11,394 nt of DNA from Bacillota bacterium (GTDB lineage Bacteria; Bacillota; Clostridia; Peptostreptococcales; Anaerovoracaceae): the NCBI GenBank assembly GCA_016282655.1, contig JAEELK010000236.1, forward strand, positions 1 to 11,394, in the 5' to 3' direction. Below the pieces are notes generated by a model. The model ran no database searches. It saw nothing but the letters and a program-made list of their open reading frames with translations, and was not told the origin of the DNA. Below are positions 1 through 11,394 of the stretch, one piece after another (position 1 is the first letter of the stretch; every line of letters begins with the position of its first letter). The position numbers were made by a program, and so were the translations under genes.

Positions 1-71
1 AGCGCGGCGATGAGCACGGTGATCAGCGTCTCCGCGATGGTCTCGCCCAGCCTGCTTTTCAGTTTCTTCAT
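1..71 (-). CDS. Minor pseudopilin, N-terminal fragment (cut by window edge)
   Basis: Only the first 23 complete codons are present, because the gene runs off the left edge. They read as a basic leader (MKKLKSRLG) followed by ETIAETLITVLIAA. This is a Class III prepilin signal: Gly9 at -1, Glu at +5 (E14) and the start of a hydrophobic helix. The +1 residue is Glu rather than the usual Phe or Met, a variant I associate with minor pseudopilins of Firmicutes; that is from memory. The ATG overlaps the stop of the preceding gene as ATGA (71-68). A strong SD (GGGAGG, 83-78) lies 6 nt upstream, so the start is secure and coupled translation is likely. Expected role: a membrane-embedded minor pilin, processed by prepilin peptidase, in the pilus initiation or tip complex. 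The fold and length beyond the helix cannot be seen. Confidence 0.8.
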   Translation of the reverse strand, partial: MKKLKSRLGETIAETLITVLIAA

Positions 72-685
72 GATCTGCCTCCCAGAGTGCTGAGCTCTGT
101 TTTGTTCCAGCGGTAATAGGTCACGCTGGTCGTGATCGTCTTGTGCTCTTCTTCGATCTCCTGCGTGCTGATGATCGGCATGGGCGTGGAGGGGATCCAC
201 GCGCTCAGGTAGACGACCTGCTCTCCGTCCTGCTGGCGGACGGTCCCCTTGATCTTGTACGGGTCCGTGGGATCCTCGTAGCTTCCGTTCGGATTGATCT
301 GGAAGTCGAAGACGCAGACGGTGCCGTCGCTCTGCCTGACGCGGAACTCGTGCCGGGTCTCCCCGGGGAGCGCGGCCAGGACCTGCCGCAGGGGATCGCC
401 CAGGCTGCCGCTGGTCGCATAGCTGACGATGGTCTCCGGCTCTTCGCCTTCCACCTCGGTCGTGACGGAGGTGACCGTGACGCTGGATTCGGAGATGCAC
501 TCCGAAAGGAGCTTCGCGGCGGAGCTGACCGAGAGAGATTCTCTCTGCCGGAGCCCGTCGTCGTGCACGCGCTTGACCGCGGTGACGGAGGCGCTGAGCA
601 CGACCATGGAGATCATGGCCGCCACGAGGAAGAGGAGCAGAGCGAAGAGCACGGAAATGCCGCACTTGCTTTTCAGCTTACGCAT
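68..685 (-). CDS. Pseudopilin-like minor pilus protein lacking Glu+5 (PilX/GspK-like position)
   Basis: A 205-aa protein with a short basic leader (MRKLKSKCG) followed by ISVLFALLLFLVAAM and one long hydrophobic helix (about residues 10-35). The layout is that of a prepilin: Gly9 at -1, then the helix. The residue at +5 is Phe14 instead of Glu, so the recruitment Glu of ordinary pilins is missing. In known systems GspK is the main example of a pseudopilin that lacks Glu5, and it caps the tip. The remainder (about 40-205) is a soluble, Ser/Thr-rich, beta-prone exported domain with no family I recognise; its single Cys there is in the stretch TVCVFDF. The ATG at 685 overlaps the stop of the giant gene as TGATG, and an SD (GGGAGG) lies 12 nt upstream. 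The 3' end overlaps the next gene by ATGA. Pseudopilin-like is well supported; PilX- or GspK-like is inference from position and the missing Glu. Confidence 0.8.
   Translation of the reverse strand: MRKLKSKCGISVLFALLLFLVAAMISMVVLSASVTAVKRVHDDGLRQRESLSVSSAAKLLSECISESSVTVTSVTTEVEGEEPETIVSYATSGSLGDPLRQVLAALPGETRHEFRVRQSDGTVCVFDFQINPNGSYEDPTDPYKIKGTVRQQDGEQVVYLSAWIPSTPMPIISTQEIEEEHKTITTSVTYYRWNKTELSTLGGRS
78..83 (-). promoter_or_regulatory. Shine-Dalgarno of the edge pseudopilin gene, inside the previous CDS
   Basis: GGGAGG on the minus strand, 6 nt before the ATG at 71. It lies within the last codons of the 205-aa gene and writes the Gly-Gly of that protein's C-terminal LGGRS. Together with the ATGA overlap it decides the start of the edge gene. 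Confidence 0.75.
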
Positions 686-3600
686 CAGTTGCCGCCACCT
701 CCCTGTGAGACCTCAGAGGGGACGAAGCTGTAGACCGCATCCTGACGGAAGAGCCAGCAGGTCTTTGGCGGCGTGTTCTTGGCGGAGGTCCAGGCCGTGC
801 CTTTCCAGTACACGGTGTAGTCCTTGCCGTCGCCGGCGAAGGCCTGCTGCTCGCACTGCAGGCAGTGCTCATACTTCTGCCCGTAGGTGAAGCGGTGCTT
901 GTTGTTGCCCGCGCCGTCCTCGCGCAGCGTCAGGGAGCCGATCTGATCGCGCAGATGCTTGGTCTTTCCGGCGCGTACGACCGAGAAGGCGTAGATGTTG
1001 TACTGCCCGCCGTTGAGGCTGTGGAAATCGCCGTTCCAGACCGCGTTGTCGGGCACGGAGAGGAAGACGTTGCCGACCGGCACGTTGCCGGCGTTCAGGA
1101 AGCTGCCGGAACGGAGCGTCGCGGTGGCGTTTACGATGCTGGTGTCCGAGGCGGCCACGAGGTTCTGCGTTCCCGCGGCATTGCCGCTCGAGATCACGTA
1201 GAGACCGCCGAGGTCCGCGCTGTCGAAGCTGTCGATCTGCAGATAGGCGCTGCGCGTCCAGCGCGCGTAGAGCGTGCGGTCGGCCGTGAGCGCGAAGACG
1301 CCGTCCGCCGTGTAGCCGTTGACGTTCTCCGCGCCGGCGGCGATGGAGCCGTTCGCGTTCAGGATCCGGACGCCGCCCGCGCCGGTCGAGCTGTACCAGC
1401 CGTCCAGCGTCCAGCCGCTGATCGGCGCGATGCTGTAGTCCACACTGCTGCCGACCGCCACGTCGGAGTAGACGATATCGTTTTCCGATCTTAAGGTCAG
1501 GAGCCCGTTCGAGATCCACTGGGCGTAGAGCGTCACGCTGCCGCCTTCCTCGGCGCTCAGCTGGCTGACGGAAGCCCCGTTTTCGTAGGAGTATCCGAGC
1601 CCGTCGGCCTGCGTGTTCCAGCCGGCAAACATAGTGGAGGCAGGAGGCGTAAAGGCATTCGCGGTCAGAGCCTGCGGCACGTCGTAGGTGAAGTTCTGCG
1701 CGGGCATCGAACCGCTTCCTCCGTTGGGATCGAAGTTCACGGTGTAGGTATGCGGCGTCCAGGTCGCGGTGATCACGGTGTCGGCGCTCAGGCTGACCGT
1801 TTCGCCGGCCGCCTTCAGCTCGCTGCCGACGCGCCACTTCGCGAAGGAGTAGCCGGTGCGGACAAAGGCGCAGTCCGGCAGCGTGAAGAGGCCGTTCGTG
1901 CCGGCGTCCGGCATGTAGCCTTCGCCGCCGCCCGCGTCGAAGTGCACGGTATAGCGCGAGGCCATCACGTTCTCAGCCGTGAAGGTGTATGTGGCTCCGC
2001 TCACGGGATCCTGCGCGGTGATCCTGACCGAGACAGGACCGGAGGAGGCGCCGTTGCTGCGCACGTAGACCGGCCAGAGCAGGTAGTCCCCGACGCTGAT
2101 GATCTCGGAATCGGGACCGAAGTGCGCGCTGTAGGGACCTGCCGTGGTGACGGTGACGCTCTTGTTCACAAACTGCGCCAGATCGTTGTCCGAAGCTTCT
2201 CCGAAGAGATAGAGCTCCGGGCCGGCAGGCGCCTGCAGGCTGATGCTGTTGTTCACCGTTCCGGTCGCCGCGCTCTGCTGACGTTCTACCGTCTTGATGA
2301 CGCCGGCGGAGTAGATGCCCAGATCGCCGGGCGTTTTGGTCGGGATGAAGATGGTCTCCGAATAGTCTTTGCCGTTATAGGCAAAGGTGAAGACGCCGGC
2401 AAGATCTCTGGTGCCGGACTCGTGCGCGGTGACGCTGAACACGTTCTTTTTGCTCTGCGGCGTCACGAGGATCTGCTCATAGACGTCTTCGTCGGCGGTC
2501 TGCAGCGTCCACACGCCTCTGGCGGTGTAGTCGATGCTGCCCGCGGAAGCGCTGAACGTGATGTTCTGCGGCTTGTCGGTGTAGAGCAGGAGGCTCGTGG
2601 GATCGCACGCGAGCTGCACGTTCGCCGTTACGGTGAGGACGAAGGATACGCCGGAATTGCTCTCCGTTATGGTGACGGAGCCGTCCGAAAGGGCCTTGAT
2701 CGTCACCTGGTACGCGTTGTGCTCCGCGTCCTTCACGGGAGAGCCGATGATCTCAACGATCCCGGCGGGCTCGCAGACGAAGTCGAAGTCTTCGCTCTCG
2801 GGCGGTTTCGTGTACTTCAGCAGGAAGGTCTTCTCGGGATAATTCCGGACGGTCATATCGGAGAAGATGTCCATGGTGTCGCGGCCGTGCTCCCAGTACA
2901 GCCCGTCGAGCGGCCAGGAGCCATAGTGCACGTTGACGTACTGCGGCTCCCAGCGCGTGCTGTAGGTGTTGTCCTTCTGCGTCACGATGGTCGGGAAGGG
3001 GTAGTTCTTTCCCGTCTGGGCGGCGTTGCTCGAGAAGCTGAACATGCCGTCGACCGAGGCGCCGCTGAGGTCCTCCTTGGTCACCCAGGACCAGGGCGCA
3101 GCAGCGCCGCCGTTGAGCCGTACCGCCATGTCGTTCGCTTCCGAGCTGCCGATCTGCCGGCTCAGCTCTTCGAAGTTGCAGGCCTGCGGCACGCCCGAAA
3201 TGCCGGGGTGTCCGTTCGCGGCGCCCTGCGAATACAGCAGGCGTTTGAGGCAGCCCAGATCGCCGAGCAGCATGGACTGGAACTCCGCGTCCGTGATCCA
3301 CTGCTTGCCCTTGTTCGACTGGAAATAATAGCCGGGGAAGATCGCCTGGATATCGCTGTTGATGCTGTCCAGGTAATAGCAGTTGGAGATGTTGATCCTG
3401 GTATCTCTGTAGTAGCGGTCCGCCGGATTCGCGAAATAGGAGACCGCCCTGATGTTCCCGGTCAGATCGGGGAGCTTCATGTAGGTGTAGCAGTTCGAGA
3501 TGTTCGCGGTGCCGTCAGGCGCGTTCGTGCGGCTCGCGCTGAAGTTCGAGATGTTGGGGGCGTAAGAGCCTCCGATGACGCCGGAAGCGTAGATGTTGAT

Positions 3601-6600
3601 CGAGGTGCCCTGGGTGCTGGTCTCACGAATGGCGAAGCCGTTCTGGATCAGCGGCGGCTCGTTGAGCGCCGCGCCGATCACGCTGATGGTACCGCCGGTA
3701 TAGCAGTTCTTCACGTAGACGGCGACGCCCTTCATCATGCTCCCCGCGGAGCCCGCGAGGCCGCCGACTCTGAGCTGGCTGCCGAACATCATGTGCCCGT
3801 ATTCATAGGAGCTGTCGATGATCAGGTCGACGACGGAGGAGCAGGCCTCCAGGTTCATGCTCGCAAGGCCGATCAGGCCGCCGATGTTCGCGGTGCCCGC
3901 GCCCTGCTGGTTCGTGCTGTGATCGATCACCCGGTAGCCGGCGATCGAGCAGTTATAGACCTTGTTCGTCAGCTCGTTGGACTTATACTCGTACGCGATG
4001 CCGATCAGTCCGCCGATGAAGTAGGCGCCGGGACCCTTTTCAAAATTGAGCGTCTTGCCGCCCACGCTGACCGCGGTCTTTCCGGCGGTGTTTCGTTCGA
4101 TGCGGGCCTCGCCGTCGTCGGCGAAGAGGATCACGTTCTTGATCTCCGCGCCGGCCGTGGCGCCGAAGAGACCCACGCAGTACGCCTCGGAGACGACGTT
4201 TACGTTCTGGATCTTATAGCTCTGTCCGTCATAGTTCCCTCCGAACCAGGCGTAGAGGAAGTTCGAGTATTCGCCCTTGACGCACGGCGAGGAGGTGGCC
4301 ATGCCGGCGATGGGCGTGAGGATCCGGTCCGTCGTTTCCCGTACGTCGTGGCTCTGGACCCAGAAGCGCGGCGGCCTGAGGGCTTCCACATCCGCGCGGG
4401 CCTGCGTTCCGACCGTCAGCACGGTCGCGTACTGGAGATAGGGGAACTGCTTGTAGTTGAGGGCGTCCGCCTTCTTCTCCTCGCCATAGACCAGGGTGCT
4501 GCAGTTCTTCGTCGCGTAGTTCCAGTTGATGTAGCTGAACTGATCGACCGAGCGCACCTCAAAGACGTTGTTCTCGGTGCCGGGCGTTTTGGCGAAGTCC
4601 GTAAGACGCCAGTCGGAAGCCAGAAGGCCGAGAGGCGCGGAAGAGCCGGTGCGGCGCATGGCGTTGGCAAAGAAGGGCGTGAACTCATATTTGCAGCTCT
4701 GCTCGCCGCATGTCAGCGTCCAGCTGCCGAGCTGCTGCTCGCCGTTGTTGAGGTAGATATAGTCTCCGCTGTCTCCGCTGCCGGGGACGCGCGTGGTGAA
4801 CGGATAGAAGGTGTAGCCGGAGATCTGGCTCTCCAGCGCCGCCTTGGCTGCCGCGTTGAAGCTGCCGGCGCCGCTGTAGGCGATGCCGGTGGAGTTCACG
4901 CTCAGCTGATCCGCGAGCTCCGTCTTCGCGTAGTAGCCGTAGCCGAAGGAGGTGATCACGCCGCCGTCGTCGTGCGCGGTGCAGAGCGTGCTGCCCGTAT
5001 CGACCAGGTCCGCGTCGCCGCCGAGATAGGTGAAGTGATAGCCGTTGTTGAAGCCGTGTTCTTCGTGCTCCCAGTAGAAGAGGCCGAAGCTGCTCGACAT
5101 GGCCTCGTCCATCCAGTCGCCGTAGTGGACCGGGGCTGCGGAAGCGTCCTTGAGGTAGGCCGGGAAGGGATACGCGTCGCCTCCGTCGCCGGTGTTCGGG
5201 TGATACAGGGAGTGGTAGCGGTTGGCCCGCGCGCCGGAGAGCTCCTTCAGCGCGCGCAGGGTGAGCGGTTCGCCGCTGGTGATGTCGGGGATCGAGCTGT
5301 AGTGGCGCAGGCTGTCGATGTAGCTGTAGCTGCCCTGGTCGAGGTAGTAAGCGCCCGTGACCGAGCCGCCCAGGGGCGCGAAGCCGTAGGAGCGCGCGGT
5401 CTCGCCGCTGATGACGATGGCCGTGGCGCAGTAGGAGCTGCTGATGCGGCCGTTGTTCTGACCCGCGAAGCCCGCTGCGTAAACGCTGCCGCCGCGCGAT
5501 TCCGCCACCTCCAGGAAGCCGATCGCGTAGGAAGAGCTGATGGTCCCGCTCGCGCTGTTCCAGCCGACCAGTCCGCCGAGGCGGGAGTCCGCGTACACGC
5601 TGGAGAGGCGCAGGGCCGGGCAGTCCGCGGAGCAGCCGCGCACGGTGCCGGCGTTGGCGCCGACCAGTCCGCCGACGTAAAGCGTGCTGTTGGAGTAAGC
5701 GTGCAGGGTGCCGTCCGAGCCCGCGACGTAGTAGCCCGCGATGGCGCAGTTTTCGATCACGCCCGCGTTGTAGCCGGCGAGCACGCCCATATAGACCGTT
5801 TCGTTCGCTTCGGTATCCTGTCTGCGCTGCACGTAATAGTGGGCCTGCGCGGAGGGATCGTAGTTGCACGCGAGGACGACGTCGCTCACGTGAGAGCCCG
5901 CGGCCACGTATCCGAAGAGGCCGGAGTATCTTCCGGCGGTGCTGACGAAGCTGACGTCCGTGATCGTGTGGCAGCCGCCGTCGTAATCCGCCTTGAAGGG
6001 CTTCTGATCGGAGACGCCGATGGGCTCCTGCAGGCTGACCGCTTCAGAGGAACCGCTGACGTAGGAGGTGAAGCTGCTCCACTCATACAGGCGGTAGTCG
6101 AAGTCGCGCTCCTGCACGAACTTCATGCCGGCGCAGACGTCCGCGAGCCTGTCGTAGTAGAGGCTCAGGTCATAGAGATGGCGCGGTGTGCGCAGCACGA
6201 TCTCGTCGCCGCTCTGCAGCGTGGGCGCGGCCGCGCCGTTCTGCGTGCGGATGACGGTCTTGGCGAAGTGCGGGTCGAACCAGAAGGTGTCGCTCCGGCC
6301 GGTGGCGTTGACGCGGATGACGACCTTCGTGTAGAAGACGCCGGTGGAAGGCGCCTTGTTGACGAGCGCCTTCGGCAGCGGATAGACGCGGTACGCGACT
6401 TCGTCGGTGCCGGTCACGCTGTAATAGGGATCCGTGGCGGGCTTGATGGTGGCCGTGTCCGAACCGACCGTGACGGTGAGCGTGTCGGGCGGCGTTTCGG
6501 CCTTGCGGTATACGATGCCGTAGCCGTCTCCGATCACGACGTCCGTGTCCTTCAGCGTGGAGTTCACGTTGGCGCCGAAGAAGCCGTAGCTGATCTTTCC

Positions 6601-8685
6601 CTTCGCGTCCTTGTACTTTTCGTAGTAGACGAGGGAGCCGGTCTCGAAATCCGCCTGCCAGTCGCCGTAATGCCGGCTGACGGCAAGGCGCGGGTAGGGA
6701 TAAGAGGACAGGGACTGTCCCATGAGGTTGTAGGCGAAGGTGTTCGCGTTGTCCAGGACGAAGGCGGAGCCGAGCTCGTTCTTCAGGACGTCGTTCTCGT
6801 AGGAGCCGAGCGAAGCGGTGCCGGAAAGATCCCGCCCGGTGCTGTTGCCCGGCGTGAAGTAGAAGACGCGGTCCGCGTCCGCGATGGAGCGCGCGGTGCT
6901 CCAGGTCTCCTTTCCGTCGGGGACCGAGAGAGAACTGATGGTGTAAGAGTTCGCGCAGACGGAGACGCTGCCGTTGACGAGACCGCAGGCGCTCTCCTCC
7001 GCGGTCTGGAAGCCCGCGGCGTAGCAGCTCCGGATGCTGCCCGCTCTGCCGCAGACGAGCCCGCCGGTCACGGGCGCGGTGAGATAGTTGTCCGCGTAGG
7101 AGGTGCGGAGGTCCAGAGAAGCGGAAGAGGAGTTGGCGACCAGGCCGCCCGCTCTTTCGCTGCCGTCGATCACGGTCGCCGCGAAGCTGTCGCTGATCTC
7201 GAGCGAGCCGCTGACAGAGCCGACCAGGCCGCCGGCGTTCGCGCCTCTGATCCAGACGTACTTCTCGTTCCTTCCCTGGATGTCCGAGCGACCGAGATAG
7301 ACCGCGCAGCCGGAGATCTCGTTGCCGCTGCCGATGACGGAGCCGACCAGGGCGCCGGCGCTGCCGGAGCCGCCGTCGACCCGCGGCGCGGCGAGCTTGA
7401 CGTTCCGCAGGGAGGTCTCGCCGCTCAGGCGGGCGAAGAGCCCCGCGTCTCCGCCGCCGGACACGCTGACGTTCAGGCCGTAGATCACCATGCCGTTCCC
7501 GTCGTAGGACTTCAGATGCGCGTTGCTGATCGGCCGGAAGTTCGGGCTTCCGGAGAAGAAGTTGTTGAAATAGCCGGCATGGTACAGGTCGTACCAGTCG
7601 TCGTCCCTGTCGCTGTTGTTCAGGAAGGAGATGTCGCTGTTCTGGATCGCCGAAGAGATGGCGGTCGAGACGCCGGAAGAGGCGTCGAGGTTCTGCAGAT
7701 GGCGGGCGCAGGTGATCCCGGCCTGCGAATCGCTGCTGCTGTCGGCGAAGAGGCTGTTGGTGAGCGCCTCGGCCGTGCCGGGCTCCACCAGGTGGTTGTC
7801 GCTCTGCGCCGTGACCTGGATCGTCAGGGCGGTGCCGGGGACGAGCTTGGGCAGGACGCTGCTCCCGCTGCCGAATACCCGGTCGAAGCGGCTGCCGCTC
7901 TGCAGGAGGTCGTCCAGGACCAGCTCGTAATAGAAGGTGCGGCCCAGGCGGCTGGCGGCATACGTGCGCTTCTGGCTGTTGCCCATGCCGTCGGTGAGGA
8001 CGACTTCGAAGCTGATGTCGTTGATCCCGACGGGCGCCGTGCACTGGAGGAGCGCGGTGAGCGTCTCCCCGTTGCTGACGGAGATCGTCGGCTTCAGCGA
8101 GGTGGTGTCGGTGGTGGTGGAGCTGACGTCTCCGCCGTAATAGCCCACCAGGGCGCCGTCCGCGATGCGCTTGGCCTTTTCGCGCAGACCGTTGTACTTG
8201 GTCCACTGTCCGGGATATTCGCTGTTGAGGTCGCGCGTTTCACTGTAATAGACAGCATAGACGCTGCCGGTGGAGGGTTCGTATTCGATGATCCAGGAGT
8301 TGGAGAGCAGATCGGCGCTGACGGTTCCGGCGCCCATGAGCGCCTGCGCCTGGGGATCCGTCGTGAGCAGGTAGTGGAGCTCGCGGACGATGAGGTTGCC
8401 GTGCTCGTCGCGGGAGGAGACGATGTCGCTCGGGGCGTCGGGCAGGAGCTGTTCGCTCTGGCCGATGGCGTAGAGGTCCGCGTTGCCGCCGGTGCGCAGC
8501 TTGATCATCTCGTTCTGCGCGGCGAGGTAGATGGTCTCCGCCTTGGCGTCCAGCTCGGACTGCCGGAATTCCTTGCGGATCTTGGCGATGTTCGGCGCGA
8601 GCAGCGCGAAGAGGAGGATGATGATCGCGACGACGATCAGCACCTCCGCCAAAGTAAAGCCTTTTTGCCTGTTTTCGTATCTCAC
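685..8685 (-). CDS. Giant prepilin-anchored modular surface protein (putative pilus-tip adhesin), 2666 aa
   Basis: The N-terminus MRYENRQKG/FTLAEVLIVVAI is a textbook Class III prepilin signal with Gly9 at -1, Glu14 at +5 and Pro31 at mature +22. An amphipathic helix follows (to about 65), then a pseudopilin-type domain ending near GALVGYYGGD (about 90-200) and a beta-rich domain (about 200-310). Next come three GLUG-type beta-helix blocks (about 324-665, 830-1175, 1376-1898) with repeated GGLVG/GGLIG motifs and stacked SNCY/SSYA turns. Each block ends in YP[YF]P and then HYG[DS]W (672, 1187, 1920). Residues about 2040-2240 look Ig-like, 2245-2476 are three InlB-type repeats, and the C-terminal domain has CLQC (2608-2611). 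The start is GTG with SD GGAGAGA 5 nt upstream. It has no LPXTG anchor; the pilin helix is the anchor. Pilins are usually 100-200 aa, so this is exceptional. Surface display and prepilin processing are strong inferences; adhesion and tip location are weaker. The ligand is unknown. Confidence 0.9.
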   Translation of the reverse strand: MRYENRQKGFTLAEVLIVVAIIILLFALLAPNIAKIRKEFRQSELDAKAETIYLAAQNEMIKLRTGGNADLYAIGQSEQLLPDAPSDIVSSRDEHGNLIVRELHYLLTTDPQAQALMGAGTVSADLLSNSWIIEYEPSTGSVYAVYYSETRDLNSEYPGQWTKYNGLREKAKRIADGALVGYYGGDVSSTTTDTTSLKPTISVSNGETLTALLQCTAPVGINDISFEVVLTDGMGNSQKRTYAASRLGRTFYYELVLDDLLQSGSRFDRVFGSGSSVLPKLVPGTALTIQVTAQSDNHLVEPGTAEALTNSLFADSSSDSQAGITCARHLQNLDASSGVSTAISSAIQNSDISFLNNSDRDDDWYDLYHAGYFNNFFSGSPNFRPISNAHLKSYDGNGMVIYGLNVSVSGGGDAGLFARLSGETSLRNVKLAAPRVDGGSGSAGALVGSVIGSGNEISGCAVYLGRSDIQGRNEKYVWIRGANAGGLVGSVSGSLEISDSFAATVIDGSERAGGLVANSSSASLDLRTSYADNYLTAPVTGGLVCGRAGSIRSCYAAGFQTAEESACGLVNGSVSVCANSYTISSLSVPDGKETWSTARSIADADRVFYFTPGNSTGRDLSGTASLGSYENDVLKNELGSAFVLDNANTFAYNLMGQSLSSYPYPRLAVSRHYGDWQADFETGSLVYYEKYKDAKGKISYGFFGANVNSTLKDTDVVIGDGYGIVYRKAETPPDTLTVTVGSDTATIKPATDPYYSVTGTDEVAYRVYPLPKALVNKAPSTGVFYTKVVIRVNATGRSDTFWFDPHFAKTVIRTQNGAAAPTLQSGDEIVLRTPRHLYDLSLYYDRLADVCAGMKFVQERDFDYRLYEWSSFTSYVSGSSEAVSLQEPIGVSDQKPFKADYDGGCHTITDVSFVSTAGRYSGLFGYVAAGSHVSDVVLACNYDPSAQAHYYVQRRQDTEANETVYMGVLAGYNAGVIENCAIAGYYVAGSDGTLHAYSNSTLYVGGLVGANAGTVRGCSADCPALRLSSVYADSRLGGLVGWNSASGTISSSYAIGFLEVAESRGGSVYAAGFAGQNNGRISSSYCATAIVISGETARSYGFAPLGGSVTGAYYLDQGSYSYIDSLRHYSSIPDITSGEPLTLRALKELSGARANRYHSLYHPNTGDGGDAYPFPAYLKDASAAPVHYGDWMDEAMSSSFGLFYWEHEEHGFNNGYHFTYLGGDADLVDTGSTLCTAHDDGGVITSFGYGYYAKTELADQLSVNSTGIAYSGAGSFNAAAKAALESQISGYTFYPFTTRVPGSGDSGDYIYLNNGEQQLGSWTLTCGEQSCKYEFTPFFANAMRRTGSSAPLGLLASDWRLTDFAKTPGTENNVFEVRSVDQFSYINWNYATKNCSTLVYGEEKKADALNYKQFPYLQYATVLTVGTQARADVEALRPPRFWVQSHDVRETTDRILTPIAGMATSSPCVKGEYSNFLYAWFGGNYDGQSYKIQNVNVVSEAYCVGLFGATAGAEIKNVILFADDGEARIERNTAGKTAVSVGGKTLNFEKGPGAYFIGGLIGIAYEYKSNELTNKVYNCSIAGYRVIDHSTNQQGAGTANIGGLIGLASMNLEACSSVVDLIIDSSYEYGHMMFGSQLRVGGLAGSAGSMMKGVAVYVKNCYTGGTISVIGAALNEPPLIQNGFAIRETSTQGTSINIYASGVIGGSYAPNISNFSASRTNAPDGTANISNCYTYMKLPDLTGNIRAVSYFANPADRYYRDTRINISNCYYLDSINSDIQAIFPGYYFQSNKGKQWITDAEFQSMLLGDLGCLKRLLYSQGAANGHPGISGVPQACNFEELSRQIGSSEANDMAVRLNGGAAAPWSWVTKEDLSGASVDGMFSFSSNAAQTGKNYPFPTIVTQKDNTYSTRWEPQYVNVHYGSWPLDGLYWEHGRDTMDIFSDMTVRNYPEKTFLLKYTKPPESEDFDFVCEPAGIVEIIGSPVKDAEHNAYQVTIKALSDGSVTITESNSGVSFVLTVTANVQLACDPTSLLLYTDKPQNITFSASAGSIDYTARGVWTLQTADEDVYEQILVTPQSKKNVFSVTAHESGTRDLAGVFTFAYNGKDYSETIFIPTKTPGDLGIYSAGVIKTVERQQSAATGTVNNSISLQAPAGPELYLFGEASDNDLAQFVNKSVTVTTAGPYSAHFGPDSEIISVGDYLLWPVYVRSNGASSGPVSVRITAQDPVSGATYTFTAENVMASRYTVHFDAGGGEGYMPDAGTNGLFTLPDCAFVRTGYSFAKWRVGSELKAAGETVSLSADTVITATWTPHTYTVNFDPNGGSGSMPAQNFTYDVPQALTANAFTPPASTMFAGWNTQADGLGYSYENGASVSQLSAEEGGSVTLYAQWISNGLLTLRSENDIVYSDVAVGSSVDYSIAPISGWTLDGWYSSTGAGGVRILNANGSIAAGAENVNGYTADGVFALTADRTLYARWTRSAYLQIDSFDSADLGGLYVISSGNAAGTQNLVAASDTSIVNATATLRSGSFLNAGNVPVGNVFLSVPDNAVWNGDFHSLNGGQYNIYAFSVVRAGKTKHLRDQIGSLTLREDGAGNNKHRFTYGQKYEHCLQCEQQAFAGDGKDYTVYWKGTAWTSAKNTPPKTCWLFRQDAVYSFVPSEVSQGGGGN
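698..703 (-). promoter_or_regulatory. Shine-Dalgarno of the 205-aa gene, inside the giant CDS
   Basis: GGGAGG, followed by TGG, on the minus strand and 12 nt before the ATG at 685. The spacing is slightly long. It forms part of the codons for the QGGGG near the C-terminus of the giant protein, so the poly-Gly tail may be a by-product of this ribosome binding site. Confidence 0.6.
1258..1953 (-). repeat. Three InlB/Listeria-Bacteroides-type repeats in the giant protein
   Basis: Residues 2245-2476 of the giant protein. Copy 1 starts YTVHFDAGGGEGYMP and ends at TATW. Copy 2 starts YTVNFDPNGGSGSMP, has MFAGWNTQADG, and ends YAQW (W2390). Copy 3 is more diverged (GWTLDGWYSS, ending YARW at 2476). 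The pattern [YF]TVxFDxxGG ... F.GW ... LYAxW is the beta-grasp repeat known from internalin B and many surface proteins of Firmicutes and Bacteroides. The repeats usually act as stalk or spacer units, which fits a position just before the C-terminal domain. The third copy lacks a clear FDxxGG and is the least certain. Confidence 0.8.
2887..4560 (-). repeat. GLUG beta-helix module C of the giant protein
   Basis: Residues about 1376-1933, the longest of three related modules. It opens with VRSVDQFSYIN and contains NYDGQSYKIQNVNV (YDG at 1485-1487), then VGLFG. Several GLUG motifs follow (GGLIGIAYEY, GGLIGLASM, GGLAGSAG), with turns ending in NCSIAGY, NCYTGG and SNCYTY. It closes with YPFP (1895-1898), HYGSW (1920-1924) and GLYWEH. 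It is about 150 residues longer between YDG and HYG than modules A and B. Confidence 0.7.
5065..6198 (-). repeat. GLUG beta-helix module B of the giant protein
   Basis: Residues about 830-1207. It opens with VLRTPRHLYDLS, has DYDGGCHTITDVSF (YDG at 901-903) and SGLFG, then GLUG motifs (GGLVGANAG, GGLVGWNSASG) alternating with ISSSYAIGF and ISSSYCATA turns. It closes with YPFP (1172-1175), HYGDW (1187-1191) and GLFYWEH. Confidence 0.7.
6619..7716 (-). repeat. GLUG beta-helix module A of the giant protein
   Basis: Residues about 324-689. It opens with ITCARHLQNLD, has SYDGNGMVIYGLNV (YDG at 394-396) and AGLF, then GALVGSVIGSG, GGLVGSVSGS and GGLVCGRAG. Between these are short turns such as ISGCAVY, LRTSYAD and IRSCYAAG. 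It closes with YPYP (662-665), HYGDW (672-676) and VYYEKY. The order of landmarks matches modules B and C, which indicates duplication of a whole module rather than of single GLUG turns. Confidence 0.7.
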
Positions 8686-8690
8686 TTCTG

Positions 8691-8697
8691 TCTCTCC
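8691..8697 (-). promoter_or_regulatory. Shine-Dalgarno that sets the GTG start of the giant gene
   Basis: GGAGAGA on the minus strand, then CAGAA (5 nt), then GTG at 8685. No ATG lies in frame between this site and the prepilin leader, and starting at GTG gives a leader of the right length (nine residues to the cleavage Gly). Confidence 0.75.
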
Positions 8698-8727
8698 GAA
8701 AGGCCCTGAGGTCTGTTCTGTGGGTGC

Positions 8728-8831: not shown

Positions 8832-8862
8832 AAAAAACCGGCCGCAAGCGGCCGGTTTTTTT
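8832..8862 (-). terminator. Strong intrinsic terminator after the major pilin (symmetric, could act both ways)
   Basis: CCGGCCGC (8838-8845) pairs with GCGGCCGG (8848-8855) around AA; with a four-base loop the stem is 7 bp, all G/C. It is flanked by six A (8832-8837) and seven T (8856-8862). Read on the minus strand, the U-tract follows the hairpin about 40 nt after the pilin stop. It should end the abundant pilin mRNA before the giant gene. Confidence 0.92.
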
Positions 8863-9375: not shown

Positions 9376-10590
9376 CTACATGGCGCCGTACATGCCGAAC
9401 ATGGCCGAATAGATCGCGATCACGATGAAGCCGGCGATGGCGGCGAGGAAGACCAGCAGGGCGGGCTCCAGCTTGGCCAGCGCGGAGGCGATGGCGACCT
9501 CCAGCTCGGAGTCGTAGTACGTGGCGACCGTGTTCAGCGTGGATTCCATCTCGCCGGTCTCTTCGCCCACGGCGACCATGTCCACCAGGATGTCCGGCAG
9601 GAAGGCGGCTTCGCGCATGGAGGCGCCGAGGGAGCGGCCCTCTTCGAGCTTGACCGCGAGCTTGCCGGTCTCCGTGCTCATGTAGTAGTTGCTCAGGGTC
9701 CGCGCGGTGATCGAGATGGCGCGGGTGAGCGGAAGGCCGGAGGAGAGCATCATGGCGAGCGTGTTGGAGAACTCGCTGGCGGAGCCCAGCGTGGCGATGT
9801 TCCCGAGGACGGGGAGCCTCAGGCGGAGCTTCGCCATCTTCAGCTTGCCGCTCTCGGTCTTTTCGTAGAGCTTGAAAATGATGACGACGGCGATGATCAG
9901 GACCGCCAGGAAGAGCCAGTAGCGGGTGAAGAAGTTCGAGACGGCGATCAGGGCCCGCGTCACGCCCGGGAGCGAAGCGCCGTAGTTGTCGAACACGGCG
10001 GTCATCGCCGGCACGACCTTGATCATCAGCACGGCGACGACTAGCACCGCGATCACGAGCACGAAGGCGGGATAGGCCAGGGCGGAGCGTACCTTGCCGG
10101 CGGTCTTGGTCTGCTTGTCGAAGTGCTCGTACACGGTCCGGAACGCGTTGGATAGATTGCCGCTCTGCTCGCCCGCGGAGATGGTCTCGATGAACTCGCC
10201 GGGCAGGAAGTCTCCGCCCCGCTCCGCGAAGCTGGCGGAGATCGAGCGGCCGGCCTCCACGTCGCCCGCGACCTTGAGCAGCGTCTTGTTGAGCCGCTTG
10301 TCGCTGATCTTGGCGGCGATGAGCTGGACGCAGCGGGAGATGGGGATGCCGGCGCTGAGGATGATCGCGAACTGGCTGCACATCAGCAGAAAGGCTTTTT
10401 TGTTCAGCTTCTTTCCGCCGACGTCCATGTTCAGCAGGCCCTCGGCGTCCTCGCTGACGGGCTGCAGCTTGAGGATGACGCTGTAGTTCTGCTTGATGCG
10501 GTCCACCGCGTCCATCTCGTTGTAGGCCTCGATGATGCCGTTGACCTTTTCGCCGCTGCGCGATTTGGCTACGTATTTAAAAGCTTGCAA
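9376..10590 (-). CDS. pilC: Type IV pilus inner-membrane platform protein PilC (T2SSF family)
   Basis: A 404-aa polytopic membrane protein that forms the platform on which the PilB/PilT ATPases act to add or remove pilins. The N-terminus MQAFKYVAKSRSGEKVNGII is the typical PilC/GspF opening. Two homologous T2SSF cytoplasmic domains are visible at about 65-170 and 270-375. Each has the family landmarks: GIPI (81-84) against GLPL (285-288), and AGEQSGNL (139-146) against VGEETGEM (341-348). Membrane segments lie near 173-195, 223-242 and 377-399. Length is normal for the family. The start is TTG at 10590; no ATG lies in frame near it, and it matches where family members begin. The SD (AGAAAGGA, 10609-10602) is 11 nt away, rather far. 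It lies 30 nt downstream of pilT, so the two are probably co-transcribed. Confidence 0.95.
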   Translation of the reverse strand: MQAFKYVAKSRSGEKVNGIIEAYNEMDAVDRIKQNYSVILKLQPVSEDAEGLLNMDVGGKKLNKKAFLLMCSQFAIILSAGIPISRCVQLIAAKISDKRLNKTLLKVAGDVEAGRSISASFAERGGDFLPGEFIETISAGEQSGNLSNAFRTVYEHFDKQTKTAGKVRSALAYPAFVLVIAVLVVAVLMIKVVPAMTAVFDNYGASLPGVTRALIAVSNFFTRYWLFLAVLIIAVVIIFKLYEKTESGKLKMAKLRLRLPVLGNIATLGSASEFSNTLAMMLSSGLPLTRAISITARTLSNYYMSTETGKLAVKLEEGRSLGASMREAAFLPDILVDMVAVGEETGEMESTLNTVATYYDSELEVAIASALAKLEPALLVFLAAIAGFIVIAIYSAMFGMYGAM

Positions 10591-10620: not shown

Positions 10621-11394
10621 CTAGAGGGCGTTCTTTTTTATGAACTCTCTGTCGTGGGCGTATTGGGTCGCCGTGTCGCGGCTGATCTGACCCGAACGGA
10701 CGAGGCGCACGAGGGCCTGGTCCATGGTCTGGCCGCCGATGGCGGAGCTCGTCGCGATGGCGTTCGCGATCTGCGGGGTGTTTCCGCCGCGGATCAGGTT
10801 GCGGATGGCGTCGGTGACGAGCATGAGCTCGCAGGCGAGGCAGCGGCCGCCGCCGATCTTCGGGACGAGCTGCTGCGTCAGGACGGCCTGCAGGCACATG
10901 GAGAGCTGCAGGCGGATCTGCGCCTGCATGGCCTCCGGAAAGACCTGCACGATGCGGTCCACCGCGTCGGAGGCGCTGCCGGTGTGCAGCGTGCCGAAGA
11001 CGAGGTGGCCGGTCTCTGCGGCGGTGATGGCGGTCTCGATGGTGTCTTTGTCGCGCATCTCGCCGATCAGGATGACGTTCGGGTCCTCGCGAAGGCTGGC
11101 CCGCAGGCCCTCGGAAAAGCTTCTGGTGTCCTTTCCGACCTCGCGCTGGTTGATGGCGCAGAGGTCCGGCTTGTAGACGTACTCCACGGGGTCTTCGAGC
11201 GTCACGATATGCGCCTTGCGGTGGTGGTTGACGAAATCGATCATCGCCGCGAGGGTGGTGGATTTGCCGGAGCCGGTCTCGCCAGTGACGAGGACGATGC
11301 CTTTGTGCAGGTCCGGCAGATCGAGCGCGGCGGGGGGAAGCCCCAGCCCCGCGAGATCCGGGATCTCCTCGCGCAGCAGGCGCAGCGCCACGGA
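10621..11394 (-). CDS. pilT: Type IV pilus retraction ATPase PilT (C-terminal 257 residues, cut by window edge)
   Basis: A cytoplasmic hexameric ATPase of the PilT/GspE superfamily that powers pilin removal (retraction, twitching). Counting visible residues from the window edge: Walker A GETGSGKST (38-46), Asp box IVTLEDPVEYV (63-73), Walker B NVILIGEMRD (106-115) and His box ETGHLVFGTLHT (127-138) are all intact. The PilT hallmark AIRNLIR follows, then GGQTMDQALVRLV near the end. There is no tetracysteine zinc motif, and the C-terminus is short, which separates it from PilB/GspE. The stop is TAG at 10621. By comparison with the usual length of about 345 residues, roughly 90-100 N-terminal residues lie outside the window; the GTG near 11391 is internal, not the start. 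pilC follows after 30 nt. Confidence 0.95.
   Translation of the reverse strand, partial: SVALRLLREEIPDLAGLGLPPAALDLPDLHKGIVLVTGETGSGKSTTLAAMIDFVNHHRKAHIVTLEDPVEYVYKPDLCAINQREVGKDTRSFSEGLRASLREDPNVILIGEMRDKDTIETAITAAETGHLVFGTLHTGSASDAVDRIVQVFPEAMQAQIRLQLSMCLQAVLTQQLVPKIGGGRCLACELMLVTDAIRNLIRGGNTPQIANAIATSSAIGGQTMDQALVRLVRSGQISRDTATQYAHDREFIKKNAL

Follow-up and report, generated by a model that had tools for sequence, protein, structure and literature searches.

A giant modular prepilin encoded beside K-, I- and J-like minor pilins, a candidate tip adhesin of type 4 pili in a presumed monoderm

How could an array of roughly 280-560 kDa be carried on a pilin through a thick cell wall, and perhaps be retracted by PilT? 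This is the question raised by a locus from a Bacillota bacterium related to Clostridia of the gut and rumen, in which the window (the whole 11,394-nucleotide stretch of DNA that was analysed) encodes, amongst type 4 pilus genes, a protein that begins as a prepilin and continues through a long succession of further domains. A preliminary description of this DNA viewed the protein as an adhesin at the tip of a retractable fibre, in which the roles of PilY1 and of a minor pilin had been fused.

Reading frame, signal and modules of the giant prepilin

The gene for the giant is read on the minus strand from a GTG start at 8685, with a GGAG stretch upstream, to a TGA stop at 687-685, and contains no internal stops (Table 1). 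Third-position GC is 0.86-0.96 across six parts of the ORF, as compared to 0.94 for PilC and 0.87 for the K-like gene, and this uniformity points to a single coding frame from end to end, with no hidden junction between the pilin part and the repeats. The earlier observation of an 8-kb frame open without a stop is thus borne out, at 2666 aa. A second open frame, of 2319 aa, lies antisense to the giant gene (window 1750-8709, plus strand); nothing marks it as a gene, and it is probably a by-product of the high third-position GC. Long antisense frames are also found opposite other genes in related loci.

Table 1. Features of the window, in order of transcription
Feature	Coordinates	Strand	Basis
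PilT/PilU-family ATPase, 5' end cut	10621..11394	-	TIGR01420 355.2 bits, cut-off 319.1
PilC/GspF platform protein	9376..10590	-	PF00482 E 6.5e-50
PilA-like, probable major pilin, 105 aa	8902..9219	-	N_methyl 36.4 bits
Possible intrinsic terminator between pilA and the giant gene	8836..8853	-	2 sites over both strands vs 1.3 in shuffles
Giant modular prepilin, 2666 aa	685..8685	-	ORF, third-position GC, relatives
Class III signal peptide leader, residues 1-9, predicted cleavage after Gly9	8659..8685	-	Sequence; N_methyl PF07963
Pilin module, residues 10-185: alpha1 helix (12-65) and small beta-sheet	8131..8658	-	AlphaFold2 model
Ig/FnIII-like domain, residues about 195-312	7750..8103	-	
Beta-helix of module A, residues 315-671	6673..7743	-	
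Post-helix beta domain of module A, residues 684-803, after HYGDW (672-676)	6277..6636	-	
Beta-helix of module B, residues 828-1188	5122..6204	-	
Post-helix domain of module B, residues 1190-1345	4651..5118	-	hhalign A vs B; beyond residue 1200 outside structure models
Beta-helix of module C, residues 1366-1905	2971..4590	-	
Tandem Ig-like domains, residues about 1926-2240	1966..2910	-	Structure model
InlB-type / List_Bact repeats, residues about 2280-2477	1255..1848	-	PF09479 and model
Variable distal domain, residues 2485-2660	706..1233	-	Present in 25 of the searched C-termini
K-like minor pilin, 205 aa, N-terminus KCG/ISVLFALLLFLVA without Glu5	68..685	-	Sequence
I-like minor pilin, start only (MKKLKSRLG/ETIAETLITVLIAA), cut by window end	3..71	-	Sequence

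The N-terminus, MRYENRQKG/FTLAEVLIVVAIIILLFALLAP with the slash at the predicted cleavage site, has Gly-1, Phe+1, Glu+5 and Pro+22, and hence the short hydrophilic leader ending in Gly and the Glu5 in a hydrophobic helix that characterize the class III signal peptides of type 4 pilins. The N_methyl profile PF07963 scores 23.4 bits against a cut-off of 21.2, and TIGR02532 passes narrowly (16.5 versus 16.3 bits). The prepilin N-terminus recognized in the preliminary description therefore stands, although Pro+22, while present in the giant, is no general rule, being found in 52 of the 77 relatives that have a prepilin motif. Residues 6-37 are the sole hydrophobic stretch, and the calculated mature protein has 2657 aa, a mass of 284 kDa and a pI of 4.9. 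Anchoring by sortase was considered and rejected, because the giant has neither LPxTG nor a C-terminal membrane segment; LPxTG is likewise absent from the last 60 residues of all 116 sequences searched (88 database hits, 27 of 28 locus copies and the window protein, partly the same genes).

Behind the pilin module, the predicted order of domains is an Ig-like domain, three IgA1-protease-type beta-helix modules, Ig-like domains and InlB-type repeats, with a variable distal domain last; a pilin signal and module joined to domains that are not pilus-specific is what defines a modular pilin. Structure models, folded from alignments of 28 of the 103 hits described below, cover residues 1-1200 and 1360-2540 (pLDDT 89 and 83, with 2480-2540 below pLDDT 50). 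In the AlphaFold2 model of the pilin module the helix is accompanied, as a pilin would lead one to expect, by strands within residues 104-184, a low-confidence stretch (189-194) follows the module, and the structural matches of the model lie elsewhere in the protein. Modules A, B and C are a triplication according to the models and, independently, to profile alignment, and their modelled fold is the right-handed beta-helix of the M26 IgA1 protease family. At E<=0.1 the only Pfam match besides N_methyl is PF09479 (E 1.6e-10, 2 stretches, the best at 2314-2389), which together with the structure model upholds the InlB-type domains named earlier, just as the model upholds the Ig-like ones. The description of the central part as GLUG beta-helix survives as to the helices but not as to the label: the Pfam model for GLUG, presumably the motif of IPR011493, matches some relatives and is silent on the giant at the same threshold, and the fold is that of the IgA1-protease beta-helix. 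An alignment of 25 C-terminal domains shows no conservation of the CxxC near the C-terminus that was once listed as a domain feature.

Resemblance of the three beta-helices to those of M26 IgA1 proteases raises the alternative that the giant belongs to a secretion-type pseudopilus, or is a substrate-handling surface enzyme of the IgA1-protease kind. In PMC8179133, pilin plus IPR011493 is indeed read as a predicted M26 peptidase, and earlier members of the giant's family were probably already counted there under that combination. The PilT/PilU-family ATPase encoded in the window argues against the alternative. So does the distribution of HExxH, a zinc-binding catalytic motif with no copy in the window protein; its occurrence in 8 of the 116 sequences, at residues 1613-1751 within the third module and in one case also at 730, is too sparse for a conserved site. 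A secretory or proteolytic role is, in our judgement, highly improbable, and given the lack of HExxH and the predicted fold, the published 'M26 peptidase' pilin architecture may itself be a binding beta-helix and no protease.

Relatives of the giant and their distribution

A search with the whole-length protein returned 103 hits, within a size range bounded by the lengths considered (0.55-1.75 times the query); like the second protein search below, it scored only the candidates with most shared words. The HYGxW motif of the repeat module is present in 88 of the 103, at lengths of 1518-4299 aa and 25-50% local identity. Family counts refer to these 88 and leave out the 15 hits lacking HYGxW, of which 3 have a prepilin motif and 12, matching via short parts, do not. 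Three copies of HYGxW are found in 65 relatives, two in 19 and one in 4. A prepilin motif is recognizable in 77; a further 7 begin inside it, with a start that was probably called too late, and 4 are without the 5' part. Identity to the window protein, calculated per 100-residue block over 37 relatives chosen from the 103 hits (alignment A1, gaps taken as differences), is 31-50% to residue 2000 and 12-28% beyond. By this comparison of sequences, the giant's parts are conserved as one unit.

Named genomes were also scanned with a single peptide pattern, which matched 40 stretches and gave 28 named loci, a lower bound. Their sources include Oscillospiraceae, Lachnospiraceae, Clostridia, Christensenella, Erysipelotrichaceae and Coriobacteriia; nearly all are MAGs, and the rumen is named in 5 of the 28 locus titles. 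The prepilin motif was found by script in 24 of these loci and by eye in L058, the other 3 being 5'-truncated. The longest relative, in Christensenella sp. UBA1750 (L044:9980-25423), is a single frame of 5147 residues (563 kDa); its second half contains 8 PF09479 stretches, and its extension is made up mostly of InlB-type repeats. These relatives bear on whether the giant could be a chimera, a frameshift fusion or a decaying gene, as might be feared of a draft assembly of 247 contigs that is 88.56% complete with 4.96% contamination. The same architecture in 77 of 88 hits, the prepilin motif in most named loci and the uniform third-position GC of the ORF speak against such an origin, which is almost certainly wrong, and the earlier statement that the gene does not look like decay holds.

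In the gene tree, built from 25 locus copies and the window after the three truncated loci were dropped, the three Coriobacteriia copies are not grouped, a result to be read with its three long branches and composition bias. These copies come from MAGs of Actinomycetota (L033, L040, L043), have adjoining pilin genes and are scattered among Bacillota copies; transfer of the cluster, or a binning error, is possible from the sequences.

The cluster also houses smaller proteins. Five fully read stretches carry a prepilin of about 773, 794, 1028, 1365 or 1762 residues clustered with K, I and J, and this smaller modular prepilin is positioned before K in four stretches and after J in one (L094). A search with the 773-residue prepilin gave 69 hits of 458-1343 residues (a range bounded by the length filter) that, where named, are called 'type II secretion system protein' or prepilin-type protein. 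One hit of 1129 aa (P0166) has a precomputed PF00437 (T2SSE ATPase) domain and is perhaps a gene-calling fusion. The simplest account of the size series would be that giants arose by module duplication and spacer gain within a fixed cluster. Some match is found in 32 of 393 genomes of the order, and in several of these it is confined to the prepilin start. The one same-genus genome examined (88% complete) has no match to the giant, and its PilC relatives are just 22% identical, which makes the pilus system accessory.

The pilus cluster and a putative H slot

In the window the genes are transcribed in the order PilT (cut), PilC, PilA, giant, K-like and I-like (cut), and the last three overlap: the start of the K-like gene lies in the giant's stop (TGATG), and that of the I-like gene in the K stop (ATGA). 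Contig C30 of the same genome carries PilM, PilD and PilB as well as the first part of a PilT gene. At its PilT end, C30 matches exactly the 100 bases with which the window's PilT strand begins; a word of 200 bases gives no match, and from these sequences the two contigs are probably neighbours. A PilT-family ATPase within a type 4 pilus cluster agrees with the retractable fibre of the preliminary description. There are two A24 peptidase genes in this genome; the second (G000:C88:6217-6519) and a further T2SSE-family ATPase (G000:C28:2813-3637) suggest another type 4 filament or a Tad-like system.

Related loci repeat this arrangement. A K-like gene is in the cluster at 24 of the 28, after the giant in 22 and before it in 2 (L053, L056), where the K-I-J genes precede the giant, so that the cluster has been rearranged at least once. 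In three of the four loci without K the giant reaches the contig end; in the fourth, L055, it does not, and there is no K hit. J-like genes occur at 22 of 28 loci, and at least one of PilB/T/C/A/D/M/N/O at 20 of 28 in the DNA examined per locus, a count that includes L057, a source of the reference proteins. By Pfam, the L057 cluster comprises PilB and PilT (T2SSE), PilC, a pilin, PilD, PilM and the giant, whose N_methyl score is just below the cut-off. Three PilA-like pilin genes stand in tandem at L054:22453-24154.

Published work on such systems describes the HIJK minor pilins as a tip complex that is capped by a Glu5-lacking subunit and starts pilus assembly (PMC10191384, PMC9934059). In the related loci, K is without Glu5 in 24 of 24 cases (neither the script's cut in L043, three residues early, nor the corrected one gives Glu), whereas Glu5 is present in 17 of 17 I hits (16 genes, the L054 hit being its J gene) and in 22 of 22 J. 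GspK is the top NCBIfam match for three of three K proteins from other loci, at E 3.5e-6, 5e-4 and 0.021, all far below the cut-off; the window's own K-like protein has no pilin match in the profile search. NCBIfam matches of I and J are weak and mixed (the L057 'I' weakly matches ComGD and HpsB, not GspI/PilV), and these two labels rest mainly on gene order and N-termini.

What then occupies the place of H? A prepilin scan of ten loci recovered the K, I and J of every cluster and, PilA-like ones apart, no additional small prepilin resembling H, with a pattern that missed the giants of L040 and L058 and so can miss others. The giant has no match to the GspH model, and weak matches to the N-termini of several pilin families. 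In the related loci, where I, J and a Glu5-lacking K are encoded together, it is the fourth minor pilin; the window itself contains K and the start of I. By its position the giant would fill the fourth (H) slot of an HIJK tip complex, a placement that we infer from gene order, counting and analogy.

A putative tip adhesin and its known counterparts

The best explanation of the locus, and one that we consider likely from sequence, models and analogy, is a retractable type 4 pilus, in a presumed monoderm, with the giant modular minor pilin as its tip adhesin. The prepilin would be exported by Sec and held in the membrane by its alpha1 helix, PilD would cut it after Gly9, and the giant would join the Glu5-lacking K together with I and J as the H-slot member of an assembly-starting tip complex. 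The pilus would then carry outward a roughly 280-kDa beta-helix/Ig stalk, the InlB-type spacer repeats and the variable distal domain, and the stalk or the distal domain may bind a surface (a host glycoprotein, a fibre or another cell), like PilY1 or S. sanguinis PilB/PilC; PilT might be able to retract the fibre that bears it. The K-like, I-like and J-like partners strengthen the tip placement of the preliminary description, but both tip location and adhesion are still things that we infer.

Alternatively, the giant could be a modular pilin that is spread along the shaft, or that stays in the membrane as a long adhesin on the cell surface. For membrane retention the prepilin helix would be sufficient. 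PMC8179133 considers a filament-body location of modular pilins possible given a flexible enough linker, PMC10191384 has system-specific minor pilins spread along filaments, and in the model of the giant a low-confidence stretch follows the pilin module. However, a 284-kDa protein whose beta-helix starts about 130 residues past the pilin module should clash within the shaft, and its cluster partners are pilins of the tip type, so that we regard a site away from the tip as unlikely.

Beyond this locus, we lean, with more reserve, towards the view that in many monoderms, several of them from the rumen, the H subunit of HIJK became a giant tip effector, a pilin-anchored PilY1 counterpart whose reach would be repeat-tuned (0.8 to 5.1 thousand residues in one conserved cluster) via duplication of the IgA1-protease-type beta-helix and spacer repeats. 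If the H-slot tip effector is real, it is far larger than the modular pilins named in the cited passages. As a conserved neighbour of K, I and J, the giant pilin is a concrete candidate for adhesion by monoderm type 4 pili, and a size series in one cluster makes it testable whether reach or ligand changes with module number. Plant fibre is one candidate target, as PMC3672088 links a small type IV pilin of R. flavefaciens, a bacterium of the rumen, to growth on and binding to cellulose.

The principle of the modular pilin is known. Pilins with grafted adhesive modules are already described under this name (PMC8179133, PMC9934059), and PMC8179133 counts more than 1,200 proteins in 264 architectures and cites 860 residues for the many-domain extreme; longer ones may be listed in its dataset. 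The size, the triplicated module and the conserved position next to K, I and J were not found in print, and searches among the listings of open-licence PMC papers turned up nothing on point for a giant or a GLUG pilin. Among the closest counterparts are PilB and PilC of S. sanguinis, modular pilins that published work places at the pilus tip (PMC9934059, PMC8179133, PMC10191384). Like the giant, they have a prepilin N-terminus with Glu5, a pilin module, a C-terminal grafted module and a minor-pilin operon without PilY1; unlike it, they are of 50.5 and 52.8 kDa with one grafted module each, where the giant, at 284 kDa, has three homologous beta-helix modules together with Ig-like, InlB-type and distal domains, and their system has PilABC in place of HIJK.

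PilC/PilY1 of diderms is also a very large effector presented by a minor pilin complex, as the giant may be. PilY1, absent in monoderms according to PMC9934059, is a tip effector and a non-pilin with a C-terminal beta-propeller (PMC8179133), whereas the giant is a pilin. Its beta-propeller model PF05567 has no match in the giant at E<=0.1, and with no PilY1 domain found by Pfam the idea of PilY1 and minor pilin fused must be given up for that of an analogue at most. The M26 IgA1 proteases (PDB 6xja, 7uvk) and 3n6z differ from the giant in that it lacks HExxH and has a pilin anchor instead. With the InlB B-repeat / List_Bact_rpt proteins it shares PF09479 repeats near the C-terminus, but these are two detected stretches in 2666 residues of mostly other sequence. 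The HIJK tip complex (PilHIJK, GspHIJK), which in Pseudomonas goes by the names FimU-PilV-PilW-PilX, has the same co-encoded Glu5-lacking K-like, I-like and J-like subunits, here with a similarity below model cut-offs, and the giant would be its fourth minor pilin. Known H subunits of HIJK are small; the H slot here would be taken by a modular protein with between 0.8 and 5.1 thousand residues.
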